From positions 310,001-374,000 of the forward strand of contig NZ_FPAS01000001.1 of the NCBI RefSeq assembly GCF_900116425.1: DNA of 64,000 bases, given 5' to 3'. The notes beneath the pieces are model-generated. The model was not told where the DNA came from. It saw nothing but the letters and a program-made list of their open reading frames with translations, and searched no databases. Origin of the DNA: Lishizhenia tianjinensis. GTDB lineage: Bacteria > Bacteroidota > Bacteroidia > Flavobacteriales_D > Crocinitomicaceae. The position numbers and the translations under genes were made by a program. Shown here in pieces: positions 2,844 through 25,231 of this stretch. Position 1 is the first letter of the stretch. Each line of letters opens with the position of its first letter.

Positions 2844-2876
2844 AGGGAGGAGGATTATCCTTCCTTGAGAATGCAT

Positions 2877-2884: not shown

Positions 2885-2904
2885 TGAATATAAATTTTGA
2901 AAGT

Positions 2905-3177: not shown

Positions 3178-3223
3178 CTTGTAAAAAAGAAGAAAAAAAG
3201 TTTTAAAAAAGTCACCAAAAAGC

Positions 3224-3254: not shown

Positions 3255-3269
3255 CACTCGCAAACAAAA

Positions 3270-3343: not shown

Positions 3344-3350
3344 CAAAAGA

Positions 3351-3381
3351 AAGTCCTTCACGAATAGTGAAGGACTTTTTT
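3351..3381 (+). terminator. Intrinsic terminator of tRNA-Arg
   Basis: An uninterrupted stem (AAGTCCTTCAC paired with GTGAAGGACTT), a 5-nt loop GAATA and a following T run form a classical rho-independent terminator right after the tRNA. Confidence 0.9.
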
Positions 3382-3393
3382 CGTTTTACGTCG

Positions 3394-3421
3394 TCAAGAA
3401 TTGCATTCTTGAAAGGCGGAA
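3394..3421 (+). repeat. Hairpin repeat, copy 1 (palindrome plus AAGGCGGAAA)
   Basis: The palindrome TCAAGAAT-TGC-ATTCTTGA is followed directly by AAGGCGGAAA. A second unit with the same layout, but different stem bases, lies at 3531-3557. The stems covary while the loop (TGC/TAC) and the 3' tag are kept, which suggests a folded element or a mobile repeat rather than chance. Confidence 0.5.
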
Positions 3422-3428
3422 AGCGAAA

Positions 3429-3464
3429 AAAGTCATTATGATACGCGGTATCAGAATGGACTTT
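3429..3464. repeat. Long hairpin between the two repeat copies
   Basis: AAAGTCATTATGATAC and GTATCAGAATGGACTTT are nearly perfect inverted repeats (one bulge, one mismatch) around the loop GCG. The element has no T run and follows the tRNA terminator by about 50 bp. Its function is unknown. Confidence 0.5.
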
Positions 3465-3483
3465 CATGCTTGAGTACTACCAA
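3459..3483 (+). repeat. Imperfect 25-bp direct repeat, left copy
   Basis: This stretch matches 5160-5184 at 21 of 25 positions, and all four differences are transitions. The two copies bracket abiH. The sequence just after this copy, read with one base shift, gives VLQCEEDHA, which resembles the start of a GIY-YIG nuclease. It may therefore be a decayed gene fragment of the kind often found behind tRNA genes in this phylum; that part is inference. Confidence 0.45.
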
Positions 3484-3717
3484 TGCGAAGAGGATCACGC
3501 CAGTAATTCTGATGAAAGCCTTTCTCTAGCTGTGAATTACATTCACATAAGGCGGAAAATGAAATATTAACTTAGAAATTCCTTTTTAGATTGTTTAACC
3601 GAAGATATTACCATGAAAATTGCGTCTAATACTAGTGGAAAAACAACGGTGATTTATAGGGTTAATCAGTAAAAAAGAGATAGGGAGGAGTTTAAAAGTT
3701 TGGTTCTTTAAGAGGTG
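3465..3717. other. Non-coding stretch between tRNA-Arg and abiH
   Basis: Together with the hairpins upstream, this is a gene-free stretch of more than 300 bases (3382-3717). Apart from the repeat copies and a possible GIY-YIG gene remnant at about 3465-3575, I see no open frame with coding character. The last 150 bp before the abiH stop codon hold nothing recognisable. Confidence 0.5.
3531..3557 (+). repeat. Hairpin repeat, copy 2 (palindrome plus AAGGCGGAAA)
   Basis: TGTGAAT-TAC-ATTCACA is followed by TAAGGCGGAAAA. It has the same order of parts as the copy at 3394-3421: palindrome with central GAAT.., three-base loop ending in C, then AAGGCGGAAA. Confidence 0.5.
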
Positions 3718-5049: not shown

Positions 5050-5159
5050 GTCTGTTAAAATGGTTTGGTGCTAATTTAACAAGAATTAAAAAAGGAGGTG
5101 AACGTGAATTCCTTGCTTTTAAAAACCTAACCTAAAGTTGAGTGTAACTCTTAGTTAAT

Positions 5160-5184
5160 GACTTCCATACTTGAGCATTACCAA
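5160..5184 (+). repeat. Imperfect 25-bp direct repeat, right copy
   Basis: It matches the left copy at 3459-3483 at 21 of 25 positions, with transitions only. It lies in the gap between the abiH start and the end of the AEC transporter gene and marks the likely right border of the accessory patch. Confidence 0.45.
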
Positions 5185-5201
5185 AACAGTAACTAACCAC
5201 C

Positions 5202-6098
5202 TCACCCCATCACCCCATACAACACCCCACTGGTCAAAAACGAAAGCAATATCGTAGTAAACACAATAGTGTTGCTCAACTTCGGGTTTAGGTTGAATTG
5301 ATCGTTCAAAATTCCTGCAGAGATCATAGTACCCATTCCGGCTTCGAACACGGAGATGGTGCGGGGCATACCTGTTATGTTTAATAGCAAGGCCAAAAGG
5401 AGCACTAAAATAGGCGAGAGGATGAGTTTGTAGATAGAGGCTGCCGCAACGGGTTTCCAAATGCTTTTTAGGTCTTTTAATTCAAACTGAATTCCCACAC
5501 TAAAAATAGCCAAAGGAGATAGCGTCGCAGCCAAAGTTTTGAACAAGGGCTCTATCTGTGTCATATCCATATACCTGGGTAATACAAAAGCTAAAGGCAA
5601 GGCAAAGAAAGGAGGGAAGGTGACAAGCTTTCTTAAAATGAACTTTAAAGACACATTTCCTCCAGGTTCGTTTTTCATGGCCACAAAAGAGGCAAAGACG
5701 GCCAACAAAAAGAAGTTGGCTTGGTCCACAATAGCGGCTATAGACAAATATTCTTCGCCATAATAGGCCGAGATGAGGGGAAAGCCAATAAAGGAAGTAT
5801 TTCCCAAGCCAGTTACAATGAGAAATCCAGCGCGTGTGGGTCTGTCAAATTTGAAATAACGCTGTACACTTTGGGTCAACACCCAAGCTCCTATCCAACA
5901 AATAAGTGGCGTTAATACGGGGAGCCATAGGTCGTTCGACCAAGTGATTTTTGGTAAATAAAACAAAGCGGCTGCAGGCAGGGCTACATAGATAATCCAT
6001 GCGTTTATACCCAAGTGGCTCCCATCCTGTAATACTTTGGTTTTACGCATTACAAAACCTGCCACAAAGCAGATGAGTATCAATAGAAAGTTTGCCAT
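5202..6098 (-). CDS. AEC family permease (auxin efflux carrier-like)
   Basis: The 298-residue protein is almost entirely made of membrane helices (about ten). It carries the family motif GNTSFIGFPL in the first half, where AEC members keep an asparagine-proline type crossover. AEC carriers move organic anions such as malate or auxin-like compounds out of the cell; the substrate here cannot be told. It is a single-gene unit. The start at ATG 6098 gives a normal first helix (residues 2-14). Confidence 0.88.
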   Translation of the reverse strand: MANFLLILICFVAGFVMRKTKVLQDGSHLGINAWIIYVALPAAALFYLPKITWSNDLWLPVLTPLICWIGAWVLTQSVQRYFKFDRPTRAGFLIVTGLGNTSFIGFPLISAYYGEEYLSIAAIVDQANFFLLAVFASFVAMKNEPGGNVSLKFILRKLVTFPPFFALPLAFVLPRYMDMTQIEPLFKTLAATLSPLAIFSVGIQFELKDLKSIWKPVAAASIYKLILSPILVLLLALLLNITGMPRTISVFEAGMGTMISAGILNDQFNLNPKLSNTIVFTTILLSFLTSGVLYGVMG

Positions 6099-6302
6099 GT
6101 CTATTCGTCGTTTTTTACCGCGACAAATATGCGCTATATTTTAGAGATGGGATAGCATTGTTGTCCCTTGATTTAAAATCTAAAAGAATAAAACGATAGC
6201 AGAAGATTGAACATATAGTTCTAGACCCATTCTAAATTAAGCTCACCTACAAAGACCAAAACGAAATTCTCTTATTTTTAATCCACACACGAGATAACTA
6301 CT

Positions 6303-6839
6303 ATGGCTTTTAATCGTTTTGATCATTCTGTTTTGGGAGAAATTCGTCCGCGTTTTGAATTGAAGGTGGAGGTAGAACCCGACAAAGCACTGCAGTATTT
6401 GGAAGATAAAGCCAAGGGCGATCCAACGGTGGTTACAACAAAATCACGTCATTATATTTTTCTTAAAATTCCTACAAGTCAACAACATTACTGGTCGCCA
6501 GAACTCTCCGTGCGTATAGAAAAAGAAGAGTTCTCGGAGGACATCTTGGTGCATTGTTTACTCGGACCCAAGCCTTCTGTTTGGTTGTTCTTCATGTTCT
6601 GCTATGCCTTTATTGTCATCCTTTCTACCATAGGAGGCATCTTTAGTTTAGTAAAATACCAACAGTATGATGACGCGAGTTGGTTATGGGTAATACCTGC
6701 AGGCATAGTTTTAACGGTATCCATCTTTTTTACTTCCAAATTCGGACAAAACAAAGGGCGCGATCAAATGCTCCATTTGGTGAGTTTTCTCTACCACGGT
6801 TTGGATGAAATTACCAGCGTTGAACGCATCCATAAATAG
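6303..6839 (+). CDS. Conserved two-helix membrane protein
   Basis: The function is not recognised. The first 90 residues are soluble and contain a strand-rich domain with KSRHYIFLKIP. Two hydrophobic helices follow (about 95-117 and 126-147). The C-terminal tail is again polar. I believe similar two-helix proteins are common in Flavobacteriales genomes. It has its own space on both sides, so it is probably transcribed alone. Confidence 0.75.
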   Translation: MAFNRFDHSVLGEIRPRFELKVEVEPDKALQYLEDKAKGDPTVVTTKSRHYIFLKIPTSQQHYWSPELSVRIEKEEFSEDILVHCLLGPKPSVWLFFMFCYAFIVILSTIGGIFSLVKYQQYDDASWLWVIPAGIVLTVSIFFTSKFGQNKGRDQMLHLVSFLYHGLDEITSVERIHK

Positions 6840-6992
6840 AACATAAAAAAATTACGATGTAGCTAGCTTTCTTTGTGCAGCTATGTTGATACGAGAAGAT
6901 TCCTTCTTTCCATTTGGGGAGAGGGAATTTTTGTTTGTATTAACTTCCTTTATGTAATTTATTTAGCTATAAAGAAACTCAATAGCTTCTGG

Positions 6993-7023
6993 TTGGTCTT
7001 TTGTACAGAGCTCCCTACTTTTG
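6993..7023 (+). promoter_or_regulatory. Promoter of the FemAB-family gene
   Basis: TACTTTTG at 7016-7023 fits TAnnTTTG, and TTGG at 6993-6996 sits 20 bp upstream as a -33 box. The coding start follows 28 bp after the -7 element, leaving room for an AAGGAAAAGGG ribosome-binding stretch. Confidence 0.65.
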
Positions 7024-7051
7024 CACCCCAAAATAAAAAAAGGAAAAGGGT

Positions 7052-8170
7052 ATGCAGTGTTCGGTAGAGCCGAAAGAGTTAGAGGAAGTAGCAGCAAATA
7101 ATATATTAACACAAGACCCTATTTGGGCAGATATTAAAAGTCGACAAGGTGCACAACCTTTGGCTTTTGAAATCAAAGTAAGCGATGAACTCTTAAATGT
7201 AGAGGGGGAAGAAAACAAATTTCATACAGAAGATTTGATCGTTTATCTCTACGAAATTGGAGCTTCGGCTACTTTTGCCTACGTACCTTATGGCCCAAAC
7301 CTTCTACCCGAAGAAGAGAACTACGGTTTTTTTCTTGAAACCCTTTCCGAACGCATTAAGTCCCAATTGCCAGAAACATGCATTTTCATACGCTACGATT
7401 TACCTTGGGAGAATTTGTGGAGTAAGGAGGATACTTTTTATGATGAAAACAACTACTGGAAAGGTCCACCCGAAAATAAAACGCAAGAGTACAGACTCAA
7501 TTGGAATACAGAATATGGCAAGTTACTCAAAAGCAGAACGGATAACCTTCCCTCCAATACTTTCTTTGTGGATTTAAGACAAGGTGAAGAAGAGATTTTG
7601 GCCCAAATGAAGCCCAAAACGCGCTACAATATTCGTCTTTCTCAACGCAAAGGCGTGGAAGTACAACAGTACGGCATAGAAATGTTGGATGAGTGGTATG
7701 CTTTATATGCAGAAACTACGCAGCGCAATGGCATGCAGCTGCAAGACAAAGAATTCTTTAAAACCGTAATAGAAGCAGAGGGAAGGGGAGTAGACAGCGA
7801 TGTACAGCTATTGATGGCTAGTTATAAAGGAGAGATGCTGGCGGCTATGATTTTTGTAATTTCTAACCGTAGGGCCACTTATTTATATGGAGCATCAACG
7901 GCAAAGCACAGGGGGCTGATGGCGCCGTATTGTTTACAGTGGGAGGCCATACAGCGCGCCAAAAAAGCTGGGTGTGTAGAATATGATATGTTTGGAACCT
8001 CACCCCATCCTTATCCTTCACATCCTATGGCCGGACTCTTTCGTTTCAAACACGGCTTTGGCGCGGAGCTTTTTCACCGCATGGGATGTTGGGATTATCC
8101 ATTAATGGAACAGGAATATAAAATCTATAGAGCGAAAGAAATACAAGCCAAAAGTTTTCATAATAATTAA
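7052..8170 (+). CDS. FemAB/FemX family aminoacyltransferase (lipid II bridge type)
   Basis: The 372-residue protein matches the FemAB family, whose members use aminoacyl-tRNA to add residues to the peptidoglycan stem or carry out related transfers. The two tandem GNAT-like folds are visible. KPKTRYNIRLSQRKGV near residue 190 is the conserved family core, and the second half holds YLYGAS and YDMFG, followed by FKHGFG near the end. The Bacteroidota normally lack peptide bridges, so the real substrate is uncertain. The start ATG 7052 follows a purine-rich stretch and a good promoter. Confidence 0.85.
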   Translation: MQCSVEPKELEEVAANNILTQDPIWADIKSRQGAQPLAFEIKVSDELLNVEGEENKFHTEDLIVYLYEIGASATFAYVPYGPNLLPEEENYGFFLETLSERIKSQLPETCIFIRYDLPWENLWSKEDTFYDENNYWKGPPENKTQEYRLNWNTEYGKLLKSRTDNLPSNTFFVDLRQGEEEILAQMKPKTRYNIRLSQRKGVEVQQYGIEMLDEWYALYAETTQRNGMQLQDKEFFKTVIEAEGRGVDSDVQLLMASYKGEMLAAMIFVISNRRATYLYGASTAKHRGLMAPYCLQWEAIQRAKKAGCVEYDMFGTSPHPYPSHPMAGLFRFKHGFGAELFHRMGCWDYPLMEQEYKIYRAKEIQAKSFHNN

Positions 8171-8403
8171 GATTGTGAATTGAAGTGAGGGTGCTAGCTA
8201 AAAGCAATGGCGGTTCTATGAAGGAGGAATTGTAAGCGTGGGATACGTTTTTTTCATGTAGATCTTAGTGTTTACAGTTACTTCCTTAAGAATGTGAAGG
8301 TTAAAAAACAACATCGTTAGGAAATTACCAACTATGTTTATAATTTAACCGTTGAGTTGCATAGATCTATGATGGTATGGCTCCAAACCTAAATTCACGC
8401 TAT
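8171..8403. other. Intergenic region before the T9SS cargo gene
   Basis: This 233-bp gap has no convincing open frame and no TAnnTTTG match. The promoter of the following gene could not be placed. Confidence 0.4.
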
Positions 8404-11897: not shown

Positions 11898-12878
11898 ATG
11901 AAAAACCTTTTATTGGTTCTCCTTTTTATGGGGGGAATACAGTCTGTACTTTGGTCACAATGTACCGTCGTTTCCAACAATGGAGCTTATTCCTTGAATA
12001 TATATTTAAACCCAGTGCAAATAGTACCGCAACAAAGTGGGTGTCCAAATGGCTATAACTTTAAAGTAATTATCGACTATGTGATTTCTGCCTCACAAGG
12101 ATATACGCAGGGTGATATACTGGCTTTGGATGGTGAATTATATTGTTATGGAGGAACGGGCGCCGGTGTCTTTCCTTTACCACTAGACACGGCAAGTGGA
12201 CAAGTTTATACAACTATCTTTTCTACCAACTCAACAAACTGTGCTTCAGATACGCCTACTGATTTGTTGTGTGATGGTTTTTTCCTTCACATAAATGCAA
12301 AGCAAGTGAGTTCACAATACTTGTTCTGTATACCTGCCGTTCCTTTAAGTACAAGCTTACTGAGTGCAGAGCTTACCCAGAACAATGAAGATCTGAATTT
12401 TGAATGGATCACCGCTACAGAGTCGAATACGGCTACTTATTTAGTAGAGCATTTGTTTGATGAAGAAGATTGGCAAGTGTTAGAAAACATTCCTGCCCAG
12501 GGTTATTCTGAAGTTAAAACCTATTACCAGAGTCAATTGAAAAATGCTCAAGTTGGAAATCACTATTTTAAATTATCGGAAATAGATTTAAATGGGGATA
12601 CCACTTTTTTAAAATTGATGAGCTTTACCAAAAGCGCTCCATCTGATATTCAAGTTTACCCCAATCCTTCTTCAAGTGGAAATTTTACACTTAGTGCCTC
12701 TAATTTGATCCCAAATTCCTTCATTTTATGCAATGCTCAAGGAAATTTGGTGTCGGACGAAAAATTTATTTTGATTCACGAAGGCAATCAAATGAAGATT
12801 CAACTAAATAATCTTCAGAAGGGAGTCTATTATTTAAAGGATGAAAAGGGGAGTTGTTATCGCTTAATCTACGCCTAG
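11898..12878 (+). CDS. T9SS-sorted secreted protein, paralogue 1
   Basis: The signal peptide covers residues 1-20 (cut after VLWSQ). The mature N-terminal half is cysteine-bearing and beta-rich, with TNSTNCASDTP near 110. The middle, from about 165 to 245, fits a beta-sandwich that often precedes sorting domains (FEWITATE, then DLNGDTTFLKLMS). The last about 75 residues form the T9SS type A sorting domain (VYPNPSSSGNF, then LQKGVYYL). It is a tandem paralogue of the gene at 13055. The role is unknown. Confidence 0.83.
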   Translation: MKNLLLVLLFMGGIQSVLWSQCTVVSNNGAYSLNIYLNPVQIVPQQSGCPNGYNFKVIIDYVISASQGYTQGDILALDGELYCYGGTGAGVFPLPLDTASGQVYTTIFSTNSTNCASDTPTDLLCDGFFLHINAKQVSSQYLFCIPAVPLSTSLLSAELTQNNEDLNFEWITATESNTATYLVEHLFDEEDWQVLENIPAQGYSEVKTYYQSQLKNAQVGNHYFKLSEIDLNGDTTFLKLMSFTKSAPSDIQVYPNPSSSGNFTLSASNLIPNSFILCNAQGNLVSDEKFILIHEGNQMKIQLNNLQKGVYYLKDEKGSCYRLIYA

Positions 12879-12975
12879 TTTATTTCTTTTTTGTATACTC
12901 TTACTTGCATAAAGGAGTGGTTTTGAATGTTTAAATTAGTTGAATTAACTATCTAGTTTATAGTGTTTTAGGTTT

Positions 12976-12983
12976 TAGTTTTG
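12976..12983 (+). promoter_or_regulatory. Possible -7 element of the second T9SS paralogue
   Basis: TAGTTTTG fits TAnnTTTG and is part of a palindrome (TTTAGTT/AACTAAA, 12974-12990). It is 72 bp before the start codon. No -33 box was seen. Confidence 0.4.
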
Positions 12984-13054
12984 AACTAAATATTTTTTTT
13001 ATTCAAAAGCTTTTGTCGTAAATTGTTGTTCTAAACCTTTTTTACAACTTTACT

Positions 13055-14047
13055 ATGAGACGCTTAATACTTCTCTTAAGCCTCCCTATGCTTCTATGCT
13101 CCAAGAATTTGGGCGCGCAGTGTTGGGTTGAGGCGAGCAATCACACCTACATGGTTTTTTTCGATTTCACGATTTTACAAGTGAATCCTGTGCAAGCAAG
13201 TTGTACCACGGGCTACGATTTTACCGTGGATATACAATACGCCATCACCTCTTCTGGAAATTACAAGGCAGGAAATATACACAGTATAGATACGGAGTTA
13301 AATTGTTACGGCGCGATAGCCCCAAATAACACTTCTTTTCCCTTACCTACAGACACGGCATCAGGTTTAACCGTTACTAGTTCCCTTAGCACCAATTCTA
13401 CCAATTGTGCCTCAGATACACCAGTAAGTTTGCTGTGCAACCAAGTAATCATTACTGCCATAGGAAAAATGTTCGCTACCTATGATCAAATTTGTTTGCC
13501 CGGTTTTGCTCTTTTCACGGAATTATATAGTACCGATATTCGGTCAACTGAAATGGGAGATATAACCTTTGAATGGACTACTGCTGTTGAAAGAGATACC
13601 AAATCCTATCTGGTAGAACACCTTTACGAGGGCGATGAGTTTGAATTGTTAGAAGAGGTTCAAGCGCAGGGAAACTCAGAAGTCAAAACCGATTATGCCG
13701 TAACTCTGCCATTAGCAAAAAGTGGAGTGCATTACTTTAAATTGATGGAGGTGGATTTAAATGGTGATACCACCTTTTTAAAGTTGATGTCCTACAAACT
13801 CAAAGAAAAAGATGAAGTAGTGTTGTTTCCCAATCCATCTGTGGATGGTAAATTCATTTTAGAGGGGAAAGCTGTAGAACAACAGAATTACAAGGTATTC
13901 AATGCTCAAGGACAAATTATTTCACCTGATAAATACCTCCAGTCCATGGGAGAAAATCGCGTGATTTTTGATCTAAGTAACCTTCCGAAAGGGGTTTACC
14001 ATCTTAGGAGTTCAGAAATGAAAGATTATAGTTTGGTGGTGGTATAG
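13055..14047 (+). CDS. T9SS-sorted secreted protein, paralogue 2
   Basis: This 330-residue protein has the same architecture as the preceding one: signal peptide (residues 1-21, cut after LGAQ), cysteine-bearing N-terminal domain with TNSTNCASDTP, beta-sandwich with FEWTTAVE and DLNGDTTFLKLMS, and a T9SS type A domain (LFPNPSVDGKF, then LPKGVYHLR). The shared segments show a tandem duplication. The N-terminal part has drifted more than the C-terminal half, as expected if the ligand-facing part is under different selection. Confidence 0.83.
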   Translation: MRRLILLLSLPMLLCSKNLGAQCWVEASNHTYMVFFDFTILQVNPVQASCTTGYDFTVDIQYAITSSGNYKAGNIHSIDTELNCYGAIAPNNTSFPLPTDTASGLTVTSSLSTNSTNCASDTPVSLLCNQVIITAIGKMFATYDQICLPGFALFTELYSTDIRSTEMGDITFEWTTAVERDTKSYLVEHLYEGDEFELLEEVQAQGNSEVKTDYAVTLPLAKSGVHYFKLMEVDLNGDTTFLKLMSYKLKEKDEVVLFPNPSVDGKFILEGKAVEQQNYKVFNAQGQIISPDKYLQSMGENRVIFDLSNLPKGVYHLRSSEMKDYSLVVV

Positions 14048-15696: not shown

Positions 15697-15764
15697 TGGA
15701 GCATAATTTCACCAAAAAATGATAATTATCCTTCCATTTTTCAACTGAGAAATGGAGGAAAGAT

Positions 15765-15772
15765 TAATTTTG
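15765..15772 (+). promoter_or_regulatory. -7 element at the head of the metal-acquisition locus
   Basis: TAATTTTG is an exact TAnnTTTG match only 9 bp before ATG 15782. It lies within the longer in-frame version starting at ATG 15752, so that start is unlikely. The leader would be only a few nucleotides long. Confidence 0.6.
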
Positions 15773-15781
15773 TCGGCAGGT

Positions 15782-16189
15782 ATGAGAATATTTGCCGGCA
15801 TAGTAATCCTTATTTACGTTTTCTCTTTGAGTAAGCCCGTGCAAACCATCCTTCATTTTACGCAAAATCAAGAACAAATTGCCGAAGAACTTTGTGAGAA
15901 CAAAGACCAAGAAGAATTAGAGTGTAACGGTAAGTGTTATTTGATGAAAGAGTTGGCCAACGAAGTTAACGATGATCAAGCCTTAAACTCCGAGGAGAAT
16001 TCCAAACCCTCAAAGAAAGATTCAAAATCTCAGTTCAAACAAAAAGACTACGAACGTTTAAACAATCCTGTAGATTTACCAATTTACTTTTTAGAGAAGG
16101 ACGAAAAGAATTTTATTCCCTACAGCTATCATTTAGCTACGTTTACTGGAGATATCACCGTTCCACCTCCCCAAGTTTTGTACATATAA
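15782..16189 (+). CDS. Small exported NGKC protein with C-terminal PPPQ motif
   Basis: The family is found, as far as I know, beside TonB receptors and copper genes in Bacteroidota, but it has no assigned function. The start at ATG 15782 gives a hydrophobic signal (MRIFAGIVILIYVFSL). Next comes a charged segment with two cysteines (ELCENKD, then ECNGKCYLMKEL), possibly a metal or thiol site. A lysine/serine-rich linker follows, and the chain ends in PPPQVLYI. The 183-residue protein at 19565 ends in the same kind of motif (PPPQFLAFI). It is the first gene of the 9.4-kb same-strand cluster. Confidence 0.75.
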   Translation: MRIFAGIVILIYVFSLSKPVQTILHFTQNQEQIAEELCENKDQEELECNGKCYLMKELANEVNDDQALNSEENSKPSKKDSKSQFKQKDYERLNNPVDLPIYFLEKDEKNFIPYSYHLATFTGDITVPPPQVLYI

Positions 16190-16213
16190 GTTAAAAATCA
16201 TGCTAGAAATTGC

Positions 16214-16253
16214 TTTGCGAAGAAACCCATCGCAGGCGTGCGCCTATGCGCAA
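16214..16253 (+). promoter_or_regulatory. Possible RNA hairpin in the mbnP leader
   Basis: TTTGCG and CGCAAA flank an inner stem with CGC-AGGC, loop GTGC, GCCT and GCG with a two-base bulge. It is the only GC-rich patch in the gap before mbnP. It could be a leader hairpin or an operator; nothing more can be said. Confidence 0.3.
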
Positions 16254-16271
16254 AATTTAATGTACAAAACA

Positions 16272-17117
16272 ATGAAAAAAATTATAGGAATGTTCGCTAT
16301 AGCAGTGTTTGCTGTGGCGTGTAAGAAAGAAGATATTCAACAAAATCAAAACGAATACAAAGGTGAAATCTTGGTGAATTTTGATTTGAAAGCGGGAAGT
16401 TCTCCGCTTGCGTTAAGAGCAGCTGGGGATACTGTAAATTATGATTACAATACATCAAATAACCAGGCTTTTAACGTCTCAAATTTTGGTTTTTATGTAA
16501 GTGCTTTCACGCTAAGTGGACCTAACGGTGAGAGCTATACCCAAGAAATGAAAGCTACGGCTGAATCGGCTAAAGGGTATTATAAAGTGGAAGCGAGTAA
16601 TCCATCATCTAGTTTTATTAACCTTGATAATATTCCAGAAGGAAGTTACGATCAAGTGAGCTTCACCATAGGTGTAGGTGAAGAAGGAGTGCAATCTGGA
16701 GCTTCTGGTGGTGTTTTGGATCCTGCCAATGGAGCATGGTTCTGGAATTGGAATGCAGGTTACATAGCCATGAAAGTAGAAGGCAGTGCTGCCGATTCTC
16801 CGCAAGAATTTGTTGACCAAGGAAACGGATCAAGTATCCCTGCAAAACGCATGGAATTTCATGTAGGTGGTTGGAAAGATGTGGAAGGAAGTATGTTTGT
16901 GAACAACCTGAAAACCTTAACCTTAGATTTTGGTTCACCTATTTTAATCGGTGAGAAATATGCTCCCGAAGCACACGTAGTGGTTGATGTATTGCCTTTC
17001 TTCAATGCTTCAAACAACGATTTTACAACTTCTTATTCTGTACATTCTCCTATGGCGGGGGCTCCTTTTGCAGCTACTTTCCAAAGTATGTTTGTCATGG
17101 ATCACGTACACCAATAA
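16272..17117 (+). CDS. mbnP: MbnP-family copper-binding lipoprotein
   Basis: MbnP proteins bind copper in the periplasm through a kynurenine made from a tryptophan by the partner MbnH. The start at ATG 16272 gives a lipoprotein signal (MKKIIGMFAIAVFAVAC, lipid Cys17). The hallmark is the tryptophan-rich strand NGAWFWNWNAGYIAMKVEG at 153-171, with Trp156, 158 and 160; one of these is the candidate for oxidation. FNVSNFGFYVSAFTL at 67-81 and EFHVGG later also fit the family. An in-frame ATG 72 bases upstream (16200) would add a polar extension and is rejected. It is followed after one base by mbnH. Confidence 0.85.
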   Translation: MKKIIGMFAIAVFAVACKKEDIQQNQNEYKGEILVNFDLKAGSSPLALRAAGDTVNYDYNTSNNQAFNVSNFGFYVSAFTLSGPNGESYTQEMKATAESAKGYYKVEASNPSSSFINLDNIPEGSYDQVSFTIGVGEEGVQSGASGGVLDPANGAWFWNWNAGYIAMKVEGSAADSPQEFVDQGNGSSIPAKRMEFHVGGWKDVEGSMFVNNLKTLTLDFGSPILIGEKYAPEAHVVVDVLPFFNASNNDFTTSYSVHSPMAGAPFAATFQSMFVMDHVHQ

Positions 17118-17118
17118 G

Positions 17119-18159
17119 ATGAAAAGGACATATAAATTGAGCTACGCGTGCATGACATGCGTAGTTCTTGTTTTGCTTTCTTGTAGTAAGAATCGTGGTG
17201 AAATTCAGTCTTTTGCTTTCGTAAAACCTGAGCATTTCCCAAATACTACCTATGATTTTTCTAAGAATGAAATCACCGAAGAAGGATTTTTATTGGGGAG
17301 AAAGTTATTCTATGATCCATTACTTTCTCTAGATGGTAGTGTGGCTTGTGCGAATTGTCACCAGCAAGGAACTGCCTTTGCAGACGGACAACAGCATCCT
17401 TTTTCCATAGGGGTAGACAATGAAGTGGGAATCAGAAATGCTCCAATGTTAACCAATTTGGCCTTTTTCAAAGAGTTCTTTTGGGATGGAGGAGTAACGC
17501 ATTTGGACTTTGTACCCATCAATGCCATTGAGTCTGAGATAGAAATGAAAGAATCCTTAAGTAATGTGGTGAGTAAACTCAATGCAAACGCTGAGTATCT
17601 ACTTGCATTTAAAAAGGCCTTTGATGTGGATAGTATAAGTTCTCCTTATCTCTTAAAAGCTTTGAGTCAGTTTACTTTGATGATGGTAAGTGCAAGTAGT
17701 CCTTACGACAAATGGTTGAATCATAGTGGCGAGTTAACGCAACAAGAACAAGAAGGTTTGAACTTGTTTCAGAGTAAATGTGCTACTTGTCATACAGGTG
17801 TTTTGTTTACTAACCACGAATATAGAAACATAGGGTTGGACAGCATCTATCCCGATAAAGGCAGAGCCCTGATTTCAGAAAATCCTTTGGACGACGGCAA
17901 GTTTCGCGTACCGAGTTTGCGCAACGTGGCTTTAACAGCACCTTACATGCATAACGCCAGATTTTGGAGTTTAAAAGAGGTGTTGGACCATTATGACACA
18001 GGTGTTTTGGAGGTTGAAAATTTAGCGCCAGAACTTAGAAACGAGCCTCAAATTGGAATTCCGCTCTCAGAGGTGGAGAAGGAAGCAATTATTTCATTTT
18101 TAAAAACTTTAAGTGATGTTGACTTTATACAAGATCAAAAATTTGTGGAGTACAATTAG
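17119..18159 (+). CDS. mbnH: MbnH-type di-haem enzyme (MauG/cytochrome c peroxidase family)
   Basis: This 346-residue periplasmic lipoprotein (lipobox VLLSC, Cys22) has two c-type haem sites, CANCH at 77-81 and CATCH at 221-225. The methionine ligand segment APYMHNARF follows, and the C-terminal half has LKEVLDHYD. These are the marks of the CCP/MauG superfamily. Its place one base after mbnP makes MbnH, which oxidises a tryptophan of MbnP, more likely than a plain hydrogen peroxide-detoxifying peroxidase. The next gene overlaps its 3' end by 44 bp. Confidence 0.88.
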   Translation: MKRTYKLSYACMTCVVLVLLSCSKNRGEIQSFAFVKPEHFPNTTYDFSKNEITEEGFLLGRKLFYDPLLSLDGSVACANCHQQGTAFADGQQHPFSIGVDNEVGIRNAPMLTNLAFFKEFFWDGGVTHLDFVPINAIESEIEMKESLSNVVSKLNANAEYLLAFKKAFDVDSISSPYLLKALSQFTLMMVSASSPYDKWLNHSGELTQQEQEGLNLFQSKCATCHTGVLFTNHEYRNIGLDSIYPDKGRALISENPLDDGKFRVPSLRNVALTAPYMHNARFWSLKEVLDHYDTGVLEVENLAPELRNEPQIGIPLSEVEKEAIISFLKTLSDVDFIQDQKFVEYN

Positions 18160-19060
18160 CCTCTTAGCCTTACTACTTATCACTCCCGATGCAAAAGCCT
18201 GTGATGTTTGTGGATGTGCAGTAGGAGGGATGAGCATGGGCTTGGGGATGGAAACGACCAATAACTACTTCGGTTTGCGCTATTCACATGTACAGTTCAA
18301 TGCGCAAATCAACTACAACAGTCAATATTTGGAAGATATATATTCGAACGATAGCTATCACAGAATGGAGCTCACTTCCAAATATCATTTTACTCCGAAA
18401 ATCTATGGAATGGCCATTTTACCTGTGGTGTACAATACCATGCGAGGGAATACAGAAAATATAGCGCATGCTAGTTTAGGAGACGCTTCCTTAGGGTTAG
18501 CGTACCGACTAATTTCTCCTCCCATGGATACAACAAAAATTCGAGGTCATCTTTTAGATATTGGAGCGAATATTAGTTTGCCAACAGGCGCTTATCAACT
18601 GGAACATGAAGGTGAAATCGTCAACAGAAATTTTCAAGCCGGAAAAGGTAGTTTTGCTTATTCCGCGGTAGTGAAATATATGTTTATGTTTAAAAAATGG
18701 CGCTATACAACGGATTTATCTTATGGATGGAATACTGTAAATAAAGATGATTATCACTTTGGTAATCAGTTGAATGTGTTTGCTTCTTTCGGTCGGTTGT
18801 TTAACTGGGGAAATACAACGATTTATCCTTCTTTAGGTGCGTACTTTGAACACGGAGAGCAGCATACAGAAGACGGTAAAATTGTTTTTAATACAGGAGG
18901 AAATGCTGTTTTAGCAGATATTGGCGTGGCCGTTAAAACCTCAAAACTGACCTATTGGATGAAGTTTCTTCCAGTGATTCATCAATCTTACAATGTAGAT
19001 GCATTGAGTACTATTCGTGGAGGAAAGCGATTGAATTTGGGAATTAGGTATAGGTTTTAA
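18116..19060 (+). CDS. Outer-membrane beta-barrel protein with CDVCGC N-terminus
   Basis: A signal peptide (residues 1-28) ends just before CDVCGCAVGGMSMGLGM, so the mature protein begins with three cysteines and several methionines, a plausible soft-metal (Cu) site. The remainder alternates aromatic and polar residues in about 12 strands and ends in RYRF, as expected for an outer-membrane barrel. ATG 18116 is preferred to the GTG three bases earlier. The gene starts within mbnH, so the three genes mbnP, mbnH and this one form a coupled unit. No solved relative is known to me. Confidence 0.75.
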   Translation: MLTLYKIKNLWSTISLLALLLITPDAKACDVCGCAVGGMSMGLGMETTNNYFGLRYSHVQFNAQINYNSQYLEDIYSNDSYHRMELTSKYHFTPKIYGMAILPVVYNTMRGNTENIAHASLGDASLGLAYRLISPPMDTTKIRGHLLDIGANISLPTGAYQLEHEGEIVNRNFQAGKGSFAYSAVVKYMFMFKKWRYTTDLSYGWNTVNKDDYHFGNQLNVFASFGRLFNWGNTTIYPSLGAYFEHGEQHTEDGKIVFNTGGNAVLADIGVAVKTSKLTYWMKFLPVIHQSYNVDALSTIRGGKRLNLGIRYRF

Positions 19061-19127
19061 TTGTAATTCCATGACATTCATTGAACTAAAAGAAATGGAG
19101 AAAGGCTTACTATTACCTACAAATCTC

Positions 19128-19135
19128 TATATTTG
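19128..19135 (+). promoter_or_regulatory. -7 element before the small His/Glu-rich gene
   Basis: TATATTTG fits TAnnTTTG. It sits 12 bp before ATG 19148 and overlaps an alternative TTG start at 19133, ruling that start out. It suggests a second transcription start inside the metal locus. Confidence 0.5.
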
Positions 19136-19147
19136 TTCACCGCGAGA

Positions 19148-19504
19148 ATGAAATTATTTACTAACATATTGAAGAGTAGTGGACTACGGTTTTTAATCGT
19201 ATTGGTCGCTGCTCTTTTTTTTGTTGATTATTCTCATGCAGCGCATACTTCAACGCTCTCTTCTGAAATTCTAAGTGTTTCAAACAATGAGGATGATACC
19301 CATAAAATGGAATACATCAACATTGAAGAGCAGGAAGAAGAAAACGAAGAACATGTGAATGCTGATGATTTTCATGAAGGAATAGCTACGCATGCCTTTG
19401 TTCAATATCCCAGTTTAGTCCTTGGAAAAGGGATGCGTGTATCACATTCGAATAGGGTGTTTGCTGTACTTTTCATTAAGCATGTCTGTTTAAAAATTCC
19501 CTAG
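19148..19504 (+). CDS. Small exported acidic protein of the metal locus
   Basis: The 118-residue protein starts with a signal peptide (MKLFTNILKSSGLRFLIVLV, cut near SHAA). The mature part is acidic and contains scattered histidines (DDTHKME, EEQEEENEEHVN, DDFHEG, THAF). That composition could bind divalent metals, but it is not diagnostic. It is not recognised as a named family. It lies between the CDVCGC barrel and the 183-residue protein, on the same strand, in the same transcription direction. Confidence 0.6.
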   Translation: MKLFTNILKSSGLRFLIVLVAALFFVDYSHAAHTSTLSSEILSVSNNEDDTHKMEYINIEEQEEENEEHVNADDFHEGIATHAFVQYPSLVLGKGMRVSHSNRVFAVLFIKHVCLKIP

Positions 19505-19564
19505 TTGAATTTTTAAGATCAACACGCTATCCACCCTCCTCATTTTTATTCATTTTACTTTGCG

Positions 19565-20116
19565 TTGAAAAAACACATCTTACATACGGTTATCGTGGTA
19601 TTTTCCATCGTTTTACTCTTTCCTTTTATAGGATTGAGGGTGATGTATGGTGTGCAAAAGAAAGCGGTAAGACACGAGGTAAGATCCATGATCAAAGCCG
19701 GTGCTGCAGAGGATGAATTAGTGAATTTCACATTTGCTCTAAAAGATACTGCTCACATCATGGAGTGGAAACACGCGCGTGAATTCAAGTATCAAGAGAT
19801 GATGTATGATATCGTACATCGCGTTTATGAGGGCGACAGTGTGCTTTACAAATGTTGGAAAGATACCAAAGAAACGGTATTGAGTCAGCGCTATACGGCA
19901 TGGTTTCAGGCTGCATTGAATCAAAATAGTCCGCTACAAAAATCGAAAACCCATGTCTTGTGTACAGCAGATAAATGGAACAATTCCTTTCCTGTATATG
20001 TAATCACTGAGCATTTTCCTGTTGATAGGGAATGGACGAATTCCTACTTCATTAACTATACTTCTCGCTTTGGAGAAGTCCATTCACCGCCCCCACAATT
20101 CCTTGCCTTTATTTAA
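19565..20116 (+). CDS. Exported protein with C-terminal PPPQ motif
   Basis: The start is a TTG at 19565; no ATG exists before residue 27, which lies after the hydrophobic signal (residues 5-25). The mature domain has WKHAREFKYQEMMYDIVHR and YKCWKDTKE, a pattern I associate with unnamed small proteins near Bacteroidota TonB receptors. The C-terminus, GEVHSPPPQFLAFI, matches GDITVPPPQVLYI of the first gene of the locus. A TACTTTG sequence just before the start is one base short of the -7 consensus. Confidence 0.65.
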   Translation: MKKHILHTVIVVFSIVLLFPFIGLRVMYGVQKKAVRHEVRSMIKAGAAEDELVNFTFALKDTAHIMEWKHAREFKYQEMMYDIVHRVYEGDSVLYKCWKDTKETVLSQRYTAWFQAALNQNSPLQKSKTHVLCTADKWNNSFPVYVITEHFPVDREWTNSYFINYTSRFGEVHSPPPQFLAFI

Positions 20117-20123
20117 GCATTAA

Positions 20124-20146
20124 GCACTTCAGTTTTGTTGAAGTGC
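20124..20146. promoter_or_regulatory. Hairpin upstream of the TonB receptor gene
   Basis: GCACTTCA and TGAAGTGC form an 8-bp perfect palindrome around GTTTTGT. No T run follows. It may be an operator for metal regulation or a weak terminator between the 183-residue gene and the receptor gene. Confidence 0.4.
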
Positions 20147-20200
20147 ACATTAATAACATGAGGTATAATTCCCTTGCATTCTAGGGATAAAAGGAAACTA

Positions 20201-22525
20201 ATGAATAAATTTTTCACATTATTTGTTCTAATGGCATCGTTGTATGCTGTTGGACAGGATTCTCTGCGTGGAATCATTATAGACAACTACACGCAAACAC
20301 CAATTAACGAAGCAATTGTAAGTAACGGTATAAAAACTGTCATCACCCAAGCGGATGGACGCTTTGCTTTTGCCTGTACAGAAAAAACAAACATCATCGT
20401 AACACATGAAAACTATGTTAGCTGGAAGGCTATGGGAATCACGTGTACAGATGACCTAGTAATACGTATGAACTCAACCGCTTTAAACCTCAGTACTTTT
20501 GAAGTGAAGGGGGAAAAGATGGTCAACCAAACGGATGCCTCAACGGCGCAATCTGTTAACGTACTTTCTGAAAAGGACTTGAAGCGTACAACAGGTTTAT
20601 TCTTGGAAGAGGCAGTGAACTTGCAAACCGGAGTTCGTATGGAAAAGCGTACCATGAGTGGTGGACAACGTTTTACCATTCGTGGGTATGGGAACAACAC
20701 CAACTTCAACGGAATGGGGTACAAGGCGTACTTAAACGGTATTCCCTTAACAGATGCAAACGGTACCACAATTTTAGATGACATCGATTTTTCTACCTTG
20801 GGTAAAGTTGAGATCATCAAAGGGCCAGCCTCTAGTTTGTACGGAACAGGTATAGGGGGTGTAGTTAATATGTATACTGCAAAACCGAAACAATATGGAA
20901 CTTCTTTGGAGGAAAATGTAATTGCAGGTAGCTACGGATTAATGCGTTCGACTACTTCATTAAAAAGCAATACAGCAAGTTCTAATGTTGCGCTAAATTA
21001 TGGAGTTCAAAATTACGATGGCTATAGAGTTCATTCGGCTTCTCAAAAAAGATACTTATCGTTTATCGGTGATTTTAACGTAAGCGAAAAGCAAAGTTTA
21101 TCAACCTATTTCGCTTACAATAATTCTTACGAGGAGTTGGCCGGACAACTAGACAGTGCTCAATTCTTTGGTCGACAAAACATAGGTGAAGATAAATACC
21201 TAAACAACGACGGTCATGTTGAAGTGGAGAGCTACAGAGCAGGTTTGACCCACAACTACACCTTTAACAAATACCTCTCTAACCAAACTACGGCCTTCTT
21301 GTCCAGTAGTACGTTGAGTCAAGCGTATGCCGTAGGTTTATCGGATAACATTTCACAAAATGTAGGTGGTCGTTCTGTATTCACGTTGTTCTTCCCGCTA
21401 GGTAAGAAGTATGAATTAACAGGTAATCTTGGAGCTGAAGTTCAGCAATCAAAAGGGAACTACAAATCTTTTGGTTTAAGCAATGCTGTGCTAGGAGATT
21501 TAAGAGCGAATAACGACATCACTGCTTTCCAAGGAAACTATTTTATGGAGTGGAATTTGACCATGCCACATCGTTTTAGATTAAGTGCGGGAGTGAGTGC
21601 CAATCAAATTAACTACACGGTGTGGGATAGAATGGCAACGTCAGGAAATGCCAATCATTTAGATGGTTCAGGATCGCACAAGTTCAACACGGTTGTTACA
21701 CCCCGCATTGCTTTGGAAAAAGAGTTGGGTAAACATCAAATGGTGTTTGTGAATGTAGCACAAGGATATTCGCCTCCAACAACATCAGAATTTGTAATTG
21801 CTTACACGGGAGAAATCAACAAAGCTTTGAAACCAGAAATGGCCACACAGTTTGAGGTGGGAACACGTGGAAGTGCATTGAAAAATAAATTGTCGTGGCA
21901 AGTGGCTTTGTTTGACATCAACATCAAAGATAAAATCACTTCTAAAGCAGTAGTAGATACTTCTGGAACTGTACTTTATTCCTACGGTGTAAATGCAGGA
22001 GATCAAAGAAATTTAGGTGCTGAAATCGCCCTTTCTTATGTGATTATTAAGGATGAAAAGAAAACGCTTTCATTGTTGCGTCCGTTTGCCAACTTTACCT
22101 ACAATGCGTTTACTTATAGCAATTTTAAGAGTGATTCTAATGATAACGCTAATACAAGAGATTACACGGGAAATACCGTAATTGGAGTTCCACCTATGGT
22201 GTTCAATGCAGGTATAGATGCGCAAACTAAATTTGGAGCATACGTCAATGTAAACTTCCAATTTGTTGATGAGATGTATGTTACTTTTGATAATGCACAC
22301 AGCGCTCCAGCCTATACTTTGGTAAATGCTAAAGTAGGATATAACCAAATGTTCGGAGAGCACTTTATGGTAGATGCCTTTGTAGGTGGAAATAACCTTA
22401 CGAATTCATTGTATTACAACATGGTGTTTGTGAACTGGGAAAAAGGTCCAAAACCAGCTATTTACGCTCCGGGTGCTTACCAAGCATTGTTCTACGGAGG
22501 TGTTAAATTGAAGTATACTTTTTAA
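20201..22525 (+). CDS. TonB-dependent outer-membrane receptor
   Basis: Counted from ATG 20201 it has about 774 residues. A signal peptide (MNKFFTLFVLMASLYAVGQ) is followed by a carboxypeptidase-like regulatory domain (DSLRGIIIDNYTQTPINEA, about 20-100). The plug domain (about 110-220) holds FTIRGYGNN and VEIIKGPASSLYGTG, and a 22-strand barrel ends in KYTF with the terminal aromatic residue. TonB receptors take up iron-siderophore, haem, cobalamin or copper complexes. The ABC importer downstream favours a haem- or corrinoid-like ligand, while MbnPH upstream favours copper; the sequence alone does not decide. Confidence 0.93.
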   Translation: MNKFFTLFVLMASLYAVGQDSLRGIIIDNYTQTPINEAIVSNGIKTVITQADGRFAFACTEKTNIIVTHENYVSWKAMGITCTDDLVIRMNSTALNLSTFEVKGEKMVNQTDASTAQSVNVLSEKDLKRTTGLFLEEAVNLQTGVRMEKRTMSGGQRFTIRGYGNNTNFNGMGYKAYLNGIPLTDANGTTILDDIDFSTLGKVEIIKGPASSLYGTGIGGVVNMYTAKPKQYGTSLEENVIAGSYGLMRSTTSLKSNTASSNVALNYGVQNYDGYRVHSASQKRYLSFIGDFNVSEKQSLSTYFAYNNSYEELAGQLDSAQFFGRQNIGEDKYLNNDGHVEVESYRAGLTHNYTFNKYLSNQTTAFLSSSTLSQAYAVGLSDNISQNVGGRSVFTLFFPLGKKYELTGNLGAEVQQSKGNYKSFGLSNAVLGDLRANNDITAFQGNYFMEWNLTMPHRFRLSAGVSANQINYTVWDRMATSGNANHLDGSGSHKFNTVVTPRIALEKELGKHQMVFVNVAQGYSPPTTSEFVIAYTGEINKALKPEMATQFEVGTRGSALKNKLSWQVALFDINIKDKITSKAVVDTSGTVLYSYGVNAGDQRNLGAEIALSYVIIKDEKKTLSLLRPFANFTYNAFTYSNFKSDSNDNANTRDYTGNTVIGVPPMVFNAGIDAQTKFGAYVNVNFQFVDEMYVTFDNAHSAPAYTLVNAKVGYNQMFGEHFMVDAFVGGNNLTNSLYYNMVFVNWEKGPKPAIYAPGAYQALFYGGVKLKYTF

Positions 22526-22537
22526 TCATTAAAACCT

Positions 22538-22565
22538 ATCGGGGACCTTGGTCCCCGATTTTTTA
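22538..22565 (+). terminator. Strong intrinsic terminator or attenuator between receptor and ABC genes
   Basis: ATCGGGGACC and GGTCCCCGAT pair perfectly and are followed by a T run. The next start codon (22570) lies directly after it with no room for a promoter. The importer genes must be transcribed by read-through, so this hairpin lowers their level relative to the receptor. Confidence 0.88.
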
Positions 22566-22569
22566 TCAC

Positions 22570-23460
22570 ATGAAAAATTTAGTTAAAATAATAGCTGCTG
22601 GTGTTTTATTGGTGGCTTGTAATGCCCAAGAGGATAGGGCGGTTGTAAGCGAATTAGGAAAGGATACACAACCCAGAATCATTAGTGCCTCTAAGCAATA
22701 CACAGAGTTTATCTATGCCTTAGGAGCCGAAGAAAATTTGGTAGGTGTAGATTTGAGTAGTACTTATCCAAAAGCTGCTAGAGCATTGCCGAATATAGGG
22801 TATCATATGCACCTCGGTTTAGAAGGAATTATGTCCCTAAAACCTAGTTTGCTCTTGCACAAAGGTGGACATTTCAGCATAGGTCCAGAGCAAGTGGTTA
22901 CACAACTGGAGAACTTAAATCTTCCTTTGCTATCCTTTGAAAACAAAGCCAAAGACATCCCATCTACAAAAGCTCTTTTAAGAGAAATGGGCGCTTATTT
23001 TGGGAAACAAAAGGAGGCGGATTCTTTGTGTTCTAAGCTCGATAGAGATTTGGTTGAAGCGCAAAAACAATTGGGCAAGCAAGAAGATACTGTGAAAGTT
23101 GTCGTGATTCATTTTGGTCAGGCCATGAACATATATTTGGCTGTAGGAGCTGAAAGTGTAGCTGGTAAAATGGTAGAAATGGCCGGTGGTAAAATATGCT
23201 TGGATAAAAAGGGCATGGAACGTATCACCTCTCCAGAACTCATTGCCCAAGCCAATCCAGATGTAATCTTGTTAACCGACTTTGGGTACGACAGATTAGG
23301 GAGCAAAGAAAAGGTGATGGAATTACCCGGTATTGCGGAAACGAATGCTGCCAAAAATGGAAAGATCTATAGAATTGAGGGTTATGACCTGATTTACTTT
23401 GGTCCAAGAACAGGGGAGAATGTGTTAAAACTTCACGAAATCATTCACCGCAATGACTAA
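22570..23460 (+). CDS. ABC importer substrate-binding lipoprotein (BtuF/HmuT-like)
   Basis: The 296-residue protein is a lipoprotein (lipobox LLVAC). It has the two-lobed helical-backbone fold of metal-chelate binding proteins: ASKQYTEFIYALGAEENLVGV in lobe 1 and PDVILLTDFG in lobe 2. It should pass haem, cobalamin or a siderophore from the outer-membrane receptor to the FecCD-like permease. Its stop overlaps the permease start. The haem-binding Tyr/His pair of HmuT cannot be assigned with certainty. Confidence 0.87.
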   Translation: MKNLVKIIAAGVLLVACNAQEDRAVVSELGKDTQPRIISASKQYTEFIYALGAEENLVGVDLSSTYPKAARALPNIGYHMHLGLEGIMSLKPSLLLHKGGHFSIGPEQVVTQLENLNLPLLSFENKAKDIPSTKALLREMGAYFGKQKEADSLCSKLDRDLVEAQKQLGKQEDTVKVVVIHFGQAMNIYLAVGAESVAGKMVEMAGGKICLDKKGMERITSPELIAQANPDVILLTDFGYDRLGSKEKVMELPGIAETNAAKNGKIYRIEGYDLIYFGPRTGENVLKLHEIIHRND

Positions 23461-24463
23461 GGCTGTTTGGATATTTATTTTAGGATGTGGGGTATTGCTA
23501 TCCGTAATGCTTGCCGCTGTAAAATTGGGTGCCGTAGAGGTGAATACGAATGAAATTCTCCAAGCCCTTTCTAAGTTGGGGACACAAGAAAGTTTAACGA
23601 CCAACGAAGCTATTTTTATGAATATCCGTTTGCCACGAGTTTTGCTCACAGCTGTGGTAGGAGCCATTCTAGCCTTAGGAGGAGTATTGTTACAAGCCTT
23701 GTTTTTAAACCCTATAGTTGAGCCAGGTTTGGTTGGAACCTCTAGTGGTGCTGCTTTTGGAGCAGCACTTTATTTTACTTTAGGGGTGAACCTACCTTTG
23801 GGCGAATTTGGTTTGCCATTCATGGCTTTTTTAGGAGGGGTACTTTCAACCGCTCTAGTGTTTTTGCTATCTCAAAATAAAAAAGGAAAATTGGCCATCG
23901 TTGCCTTGTTACTTTCTGGTTTGGCCATCAATGCCTTGTTTTTAAGTGGTGTAGGTTTTCTATCTTACTTGGCCAGAGATCCTCAAGCAAGGTCCATTAC
24001 TTTTTGGAATTTAGGTACAACTTCAGGTGCAAATTGGGATAATTTAAAAGTGGTGAGTGTAGCCTTTGTAATTTGTTTGGTGATCTCTCTGCGCTATGCT
24101 AAATCTTTAAATGCCCTAATTCTAGGAGAGGATGAAGCTGTATATCTAGGTGTGAATGTAAAACGTTTAAAATTCGTTATTCTCTTTTTAAATGTGTTGA
24201 TGATAGCCGTGGCAACTGCTTTTACTGGGGTGATAAGTTTTGTAGGCTTGGTGGTCCCGCATTTGGTCCGCATGTTTTTAGGTTCGGAAAATAAACGTTT
24301 GATGTGGATCAGTACTTTGGTGGGAGCGGTATTGTTATGTTTGTCCGATTTACTTTCACGCACCTTATTTGCACCTGCAGAATTACCCATAGGTATCCTT
24401 ACTACACTCATAGGAGTTCCCGTTTTTATTTACCTCTTACGCAAGAATAATTATCAATTTTAG
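23453..24463 (+). CDS. FecCD-family ABC permease (HmuU/BtuC-like)
   Basis: The 336-residue protein is built from about ten membrane helices and has the family signatures RLPRVLLTAVVGAILALGG in the first half, EPGLVGTSSGAAFGAAL in the middle and FVGLVVPHLVR near 265. It forms the membrane channel with the ATPase encoded next; the two genes touch without a gap. It overlaps the binding-protein gene by 8 bp. Confidence 0.93.
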   Translation: MTKAVWIFILGCGVLLSVMLAAVKLGAVEVNTNEILQALSKLGTQESLTTNEAIFMNIRLPRVLLTAVVGAILALGGVLLQALFLNPIVEPGLVGTSSGAAFGAALYFTLGVNLPLGEFGLPFMAFLGGVLSTALVFLLSQNKKGKLAIVALLLSGLAINALFLSGVGFLSYLARDPQARSITFWNLGTTSGANWDNLKVVSVAFVICLVISLRYAKSLNALILGEDEAVYLGVNVKRLKFVILFLNVLMIAVATAFTGVISFVGLVVPHLVRMFLGSENKRLMWISTLVGAVLLCLSDLLSRTLFAPAELPIGILTTLIGVPVFIYLLRKNNYQF

Positions 24464-25231
24464 ATGAAAATAGAAGGAGTAGAATTCAGTATTAAGCAAC
24501 AATTAATCGCTCAAGTTGAGGATGCTTACCTCGAAAAAGGAAAGATACATTTTGTGGTGGGTAAAAATGGAGCGGGTAAAACATCACTACTTAAAATATT
24601 AAGTGGTTTAGAACCCAATTACAAAGGTGAAGTTTCTTTTTTAGGAAGGGGTTTAAGAGATTGGAAAATGGAGGAATTAGCCCAAAGAAGAGCGGTGTTA
24701 TCACAGTCTAATTTCAATGCTTTTCCTATTAAAGTGGAAGAATTAGTAATGATGGGCCGCTATCCTTTTTTTCAACAAAATGCCACGCAAAAAGATAAAG
24801 AAATTGTAGCGAAAGCCCTTGCGCTCTTTGAATTGCAAAAGTTTGTGGGAAGAGATTTCTTGAGTTTGAGCGGTGGTGAAAGACAGCGTGTTTTGTTTGC
24901 AAAATGCATTGCTCAAATTTGGGGAAAAGAAGGGCACAGGAAGTACTTGTTCTTAGATGAACCTTTAACTTACTTGGATGTAGAGTATCAAGTGCAGTTT
25001 TTACAATTGCTTCGCGATTTAATAGAACGATTTAACCTCACTATAGTGGGGGTAATTCATGATATCAATTTGGCCATTAATTATGGTGACAATTTTTTAT
25101 TGATGCATGCAGGTAAATGTGTGGAACAGGGGGATGGAAGTAGAGTTTTAAGCAGGGAAAATATGCAGAAGTACTTCAAGGTTGAGCCTCACGTGCTTGA
25201 ACACCAGGGTAGGGACTTCTTTGTGTTTTAG
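24464..25231 (+). CDS. Haem/cobalamin-type ABC transporter ATPase (HmuV-like)
   Basis: Walker A is GKNGAGKTS at 33-41, the signature is LSGGERQRV near 137, Walker B is YLFLDEP near 163, and the switch histidine is in GVIHDINLA. The 255-residue length is normal for the FepC/HmuV group. It powers import together with the FecCD permease just upstream, and is the last gene of the plus-strand cluster. The gene on the other strand ends 3 bp further, so no terminator fits between them. Confidence 0.93.
   Translation: MKIEGVEFSIKQQLIAQVEDAYLEKGKIHFVVGKNGAGKTSLLKILSGLEPNYKGEVSFLGRGLRDWKMEELAQRRAVLSQSNFNAFPIKVEELVMMGRYPFFQQNATQKDKEIVAKALALFELQKFVGRDFLSLSGGERQRVLFAKCIAQIWGKEGHRKYLFLDEPLTYLDVEYQVQFLQLLRDLIERFNLTIVGVIHDINLAINYGDNFLLMHAGKCVEQGDGSRVLSRENMQKYFKVEPHVLEHQGRDFFVF

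Follow-up and report, generated by a model that had tools for sequence, protein, structure and literature searches.

The window analysed here is a stretch of 64,000 nucleotides from the genome of Lishizhenia tianjinensis. A check of its open reading frames and profile matches confirmed ten genes between positions 15782 and 25231, all on the + strand and with the assignments and domain content proposed in an earlier note made from the letters alone. The first of these, gene A, encodes a small exported protein, a putative leader (15752–16189, +) with a CxN..CxGxC motif (C48, C58, C62) and the C-terminal end PPPQVLYI. The start given in the earlier note, 15782, proved to be an internal ATG of the same frame. 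Better starts were also assigned to the genes of the MbnP-like lipoprotein (16272–17117, +) and the MbnH-like di-haem protein (17119–18159, +), which follow gene A and are themselves followed by a gene for an outer-membrane barrel-like protein with an N-terminal CDVCGC motif (about 18113–19060, +). Next come gene E, for a small exported acidic protein (19148–19504, +), and gene F, for a small membrane-anchored candidate leader protein with a TTG start and the end PPPQFLAFI (19565–20116, +). The remaining genes encode a TonB-dependent receptor (20201–22525, +, start likewise reassigned; PF00593 and PF07715), a haem-type substrate-binding lipoprotein (22570–23460, +; PF01497), a FecCD permease (23453–24463, +; PF01032, E 3e-89) and an HmuV-type ABC ATPase (24464–25231, +). 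Generic promoter and terminator scans gave results near shuffled expectation. The gap between the receptor and the binding-protein gene holds a strong, symmetric hairpin with a 9 bp stem and a T-rich tail (22538–22559, +), a possible attenuator of the ABC genes. Elsewhere in the window, two tandem similar secreted proteins of 326 and 330 aa (11898–14047) apparently represent a duplication.

The MbnP-like protein belongs to PF20243 (E 9e-39; 133.8 bits, gathering cut-off 27), yet it scores only 33.7 bits against the copper-binding equivalog TIGR04052, for which the cut-off is 140. Its sole cysteine lies in the lipobox, so that the four-Cys motif of TIGR04052 is absent, and the WxW..GY motif is present, with Trp156, 158 and 160 numbered as in the earlier note. 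The MbnH-like protein (PF03150, CCP_MauG) has TIGR04039 as its best match among all NCBIfam models, but at 197.5 bits against a cut-off of 362.85. Since both proteins fall below the NCBIfam equivalog cut-offs, they are regarded as relatives and not as proven equivalents. Cytochrome c peroxidase and MauG are relatives of MbnH among structures in the PDB; for MbnP, no solved structure was matched by sequence. The barrel has no Pfam match, and CxxCGC was found in 20 of its 43 homologues. Compared with the MbnP/MbnH proteins of methanobactin and related loci (PMC3621798), the pair shares domain content and the order MbnP–MbnH and differs in its scores below the equivalog cut-offs and in its Bacteroidota setting, with a leader at the head and a CDVCGC barrel. 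Two further MbnPH pairs occur elsewhere in the same genome, one of them 3' of an HlyD-type protein. The interval between an HlyD-type gene and the genome's own second MbnPH pair encodes a small protein (L002:859–1314) that is rich in Cys, has DAPPP close to the C-terminus and gave no relevant NCBIfam match. A further small protein, which contains Cys and is rich in PP at its end (L050:1527–1982, at about C2:1348527 of the same genome), is also encoded upstream of this MbnPH copy, and an RND-like gene follows it after 57 nt.

The earlier note had read all ten genes as one metal-acquisition locus, and had named rare co-occurrence of MbnPH with the TonB/ABC part in gene-order surveys as an outcome that would speak against it; on the gene-order side, this is largely what was found. 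A sample of 104 MbnP-bearing loci was assembled from about 100 loci with flanks in genomes of the same family, two MAG loci (an Owenweeksia and a Saprospiraceae bacterium) and the two further copies from the same genome. On the same strand and within 6 kb of MbnP, MbnH was present in 89 of these loci, A in 43 and the barrel in 27, and the proposal that MbnPH goes together with the CDVCGC barrel and with a small exported protein is thereby upheld. BtuF or FecCD adjoined MbnP in none of the 104. Two apparent counter-examples were dismissed, FecCD in L079 because unrelated genes lie between it and MbnP, and BtuF–FecCD in L242 because these genes are part of a NikR–TonB unit. The 16 loci found by way of the binding protein, two of them on short contigs, carried no MbnPH, A or barrel. 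In the one near relative with an unbroken contig (G005), the orthologous F–TonB–BtuF–FecCD–HmuV operon stands alone on a 754-kb contig, 214 kb from MbnH. A single system that takes up a copper complex or cofactor and hands the metal to MbnP would be consistent with the common strand, the short gaps and the exported or outer-membrane metal-type genes in both halves, and the contigs of two other near relatives (G024 and G054) end just where MbnPH could continue, which would allow adjacency there; no contig-end overlap joining MbnPH to the importer was found in G024. Against it stand the 104 MbnP loci, the solitary importer of G005, the similarity of the binding protein to haem proteins and the presence of a separate leader gene for each half, with gene F positioned between the two. 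A single ten-gene system was therefore dropped on the gene order and is held to be very improbable. The parsimonious view is one of two neighbouring functional units, the first, copper-linked, consisting of leader A, MbnP, MbnH and the CDVCGC barrel, and the second of gene E, leader F, the TonB receptor and the haem-type ABC importer.

The assignment of this importer to the haem/cobalamin class agrees with its nearest relatives. The closest PDB entry to the binding protein is 5gj3 (E 8e-32), followed by haem-binding HmuT-type proteins, and the best NCBIfam match of the ATPase is the haem ABC transporter ATPase model (239 bits, cut-off 261). The binding protein and ATPase are thus closest to haem members and the permease is nearest to BtuC models, with all three below the curated cut-offs. 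A cobalamin riboswitch had been considered as a marker of the substrate and was dropped, as neither the window nor any of eight importer loci yielded one. Going by these sequence relationships, the cargo is likely to be haem or a haem-like chelate, and copper is not indicated. The classes of binding protein, FecCD permease and ATPase are those of HmuTUV-type haem importers with a TonB receptor; the receptor of the window differs in having PqqU/YncD as its nearest solved relative and in being preceded by E and F. In the L242 locus (364–8272), an A member without a terminal PP heads a YtkA–TonB pair, and the adjoining genes encode NikR, a second TonB receptor, BtuF and FecCD, which suggests an importer of this ABC class for nickel.

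Gene A belongs to a phylum-wide family without a Pfam model, which was found in 122 of 296 Bacteroidota genomes. Its members start with a membrane or signal segment (the N-terminal hydrophobic segment was judged by eye) and carry PP or PPP a few residues before the stop. The only invariant columns of the A1 alignment are C48, N50, C58, G60, C62, P138 and P139, and it is because the relatives share almost nothing except the Cys motif and the terminal PP that the family is of interest. PP lies within the last 12 residues of 88 of the 90 A proteins, the other two lacking it near the stop, compared with 5 of the 1231 long ORFs that served as background in these loci, and the distance from CxGxC to PP is 67.8 ± 3.1 residues. 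These genes head MbnPH, barrel or TonB operons, with MbnPH, TonB, PepSY_TM, SCO1, COX1 and YtkA among their neighbours.

Gene F represents a second phylum-wide family without a Pfam model, with members in 48 of the 296 phylum genomes and in 58 of 120 genomes of the bacterial family to which L. tianjinensis belongs. These proteins, too, begin with a membrane or signal segment and have PP or PPP a few residues before the stop, PP falling within the last 12 residues in 20 of 21 (again compared with 5 of 1231 background ORFs). A conserved D..ET motif, located after MYDVV, precedes PP by 73.5 ± 2.5 residues. The protein is 183 aa long here and 165–226 aa in its relatives, and has no conserved Cys pair. 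Wherever the next gene could be read it was that of a TonB receptor, identified by profile or by its start sequence. Gene E, by comparison, has no family match in Pfam or NCBIfam; in another locus (L034:7848–8213) an exported acidic protein occupies a similar place ahead of F, and neither has a PP end.

In both junctions of the window, the 3' end of the candidate leader gene is predicted to form base pairs with the next gene's start region. In gene A, the 5' arm (16175–16192, +), comprising its 3' end and stop, lies right after the PPP codons (16163–16171, +), the invariant prolines of which mark the proposed ribosome pause site. This arm pairs over 17 bp with a 3' arm (16254–16270, +) directly ahead of the MbnP ATG at 16272, in stems of 11 bp (16175–16185 with 16260–16270) and 6 bp (16187–16192 with 16254–16259). 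The modelled unpaired probability of 16254–16274 rises from 0.18 to 0.53 when a ribosome is placed on PPP. At the F–TonB junction (20099–20196, +) the predicted stems join 20099–20104 with 20191–20196 and 20105–20109 with 20160–20164, a further hairpin being predicted at 20124–20146 (+), and the model predicts no unmasking when a ribosome pauses there (0.43 to 0.43). Since unmasking in the window is clear for A and absent for F, the case for F rests on its family.

Across the families, start codons for the pairing tests were picked from protein features only. Sliding the arm position over the leader placed the peak of complementarity to the following start at −3 to +21 nt from the PP codons, with values near zero elsewhere and z of −1.15 ± 0.19 for A (n = 71) and −1.32 ± 0.28 for F (n = 20); when the target was slid, complementarity was located only at −30 to −5 from the next ATG. 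Own partners differed from swapped partners with p of about 2e-5, and this held with A clustered below 38% identity. A set of 17 new F loci, fetched afterwards, had PP ends in 17 of 17 and gave z of −1.75 ± 0.42 (p 2e-5). By partition-function modelling, start accessibility at the A loci rose modestly, from 0.44 to 0.55, with the ribosome on PP, compared with 0.45 when it was placed 60 nt upstream; the modelled gain was weak in the first F set (p 0.03 and 0.12). The gap between leader and next gene reaches 200–300 nt in a few leaders. Judged from sequence, this pattern would be the signature of a stalling ribosome by which the start downstream becomes accessible, a mechanism proposed for CutF.

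An alternative is that A and F act as mature accessory proteins in the periplasm, such as chaperones or metal carriers, and that PP and the pairing serve ordinary translational coupling, in which the terminating ribosome opens the next start. Such a ribosome would open the stem too, and at 263 control junctions, drawn from these loci and likewise followed by a gene for an exported protein, a small signal (−0.28) was seen just past the stop. The coding end of these control junctions, however, shows no complementarity signal, and it is there, at a position set by the PP codons, that the arm of the leaders is found; in A, moreover, PP is invariant while most of the protein is not. Coupling of this kind is consequently considered an unlikely explanation.

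Two copper-sensing leader proteins of Proteobacteria, CruR and CutF, offer the nearest comparisons (PMC9426467, PMC9973294). The CutF protein of the Rhodobacter capsulatus cutFOG operon resembles A in being a small exported protein with a Cys motif, a Pro-rich C-terminus, a stem-loop shielding the next start region and copper-linked neighbours, whereas A has CxN..CxGxC in place of CxxxC and a spacing near 68 and not 45 (PMC9973294). The catalogue of CutF-like proteins in that paper was defined by a length of <150 aa and PP in the last 15 residues, and about 40% of its entries are from Bacteroidota; given this large share, A may be in the list. A CutF-like sensor is, in addition, expected to be exported and to have a same-strand downstream gene within 1000 nt. 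With 145 aa, its N-terminal hydrophobic segment, its PPPQVLYI end, MbnP 82 nt downstream and a stem over the next start with the 5' arm beside the Pro codons, A agrees with the CutF-like features of size, end, neighbour and stem. F, in contrast, taken in this comparison at 170–195 aa, exceeds the <150 aa filter and lacks a Cys or His metal motif of the CutF-like kind; it is taken to work like a CutF-type leader but is not filed in that family. Intergenic lengths are given in that paper, and a phylum-wide stem test was not found in the part of its text available (PMC9973294).

CruR of Bordetella pertussis, a DUF2946 protein, is the first gene of copper operons that include TonB, PepSY_TM, SCO and MbnPH, neighbours much like those of A (PMC9426467). 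It has CXXC and a C-terminal RAPP pause motif, whereas the A proteins have CxGxC with mostly FHPP or FRPP (FHPP in the comparison with CruR), and membership of A in this family was ruled out, as no A1 member matches DUF2946 (PF11162). CruR works through Rho, and A and F might do the same, with the pairing being secondary; the similar operons headed by CruR, MbnPH among them, and the gaps of >150 nt behind some leaders would suit this, but the sharp complementarity to the start region points to control of translation initiation, and Rho-dependent termination is thought improbable here. Copper has opposite effects in these two known leaders, the CruR pause being relieved and the CutF pause prolonged (PMC9426467, PMC9973294). 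A C-terminal pause also controls the next gene in SecM, VemP, MifM and the NAP/NSP-stop leaders of Bacteroidota, some of which end in proline, although these leaders precede sec genes and monitor export while A and F precede copper and TonB genes (PMC10987492). Copper leaders with RAPP or RGPP have been reported not to be found in Bacteroidota, and the open-access literature held no closer precedent for TonB leaders of this phylum. Going by that literature, three points are new: the F class, the connection of A with MbnPH and the barrel, and the complementarity, seen across the phylum, of the leader end to the start that follows it. Control by proline-pause leaders has not yet been described in Bacteroidota on such a scale.

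The reading favoured here, to which we give a probability of roughly 0.7, is that A and F are leader proteins controlling the next gene by a proline pause and unmasking of its start. Conservation, contexts, spacing and complementarity are what the analysis observed, and from these we infer the stalling, the ligands and the direction of the response. Both proteins would be exported leaders that sense something while still being made. The conserved motif, CxN..CxGxC in A and D..ET in F, lies ~68–74 residues ahead of the C-terminal PP/PPP, a distance which roughly fits the ribosome tunnel plus the Sec channel, so that the motif would just reach the periplasm with the ribosome on the prolines. A ribosome paused there would cover the next 15–20 bases, otherwise paired with the start region of the following gene, and the next gene could then be translated; a ligand bound by the exported part would alter the pause. 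For A, scarce copper would lead to a pause and to production of MbnPH, and copper on the Cys motif would relieve the pause and mask the start again. As the MbnPH and TonB/PepSY_TM operons look like acquisition operons, this order of low copper, pause and expression is favoured and regarded as likely. FHPP differs from RAPP, the motif for which arrest has been demonstrated, and some nascent-chain context is presumably needed. F may stand for a class of exported arrest peptides, spread through the phylum and so far unrecognised, that senses the substrate or working state of TonB receptors generally, and not metals alone, a proposal we advance tentatively and at slightly less than even odds.

A third leader family is possible in small proteins with a hydrophobic start encoded directly before an apparent SulP-type permease gene (L066:13394–13750, end TPPPEFYIS; L146:1377–1718, end SPPPELYI).

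Shine-Dalgarno sequences are little used in Bacteroidota, and structure at the start site matters more. If the favoured reading is right, two abundant unannotated families of this phylum would be regulators with a predicted pause site, RNA target and sensing motif, and nascent-chain metal sensing would be extended from Proteobacteria to Bacteroidota. It would also offer a way to learn which stimuli MbnPH and orphan TonB receptors answer to. Should the proposal for F be true as well, the start codons of many nutrient receptors in Bacteroidota would be unmasked by a pause of a nascent chain, and the receptors controlled in this way.
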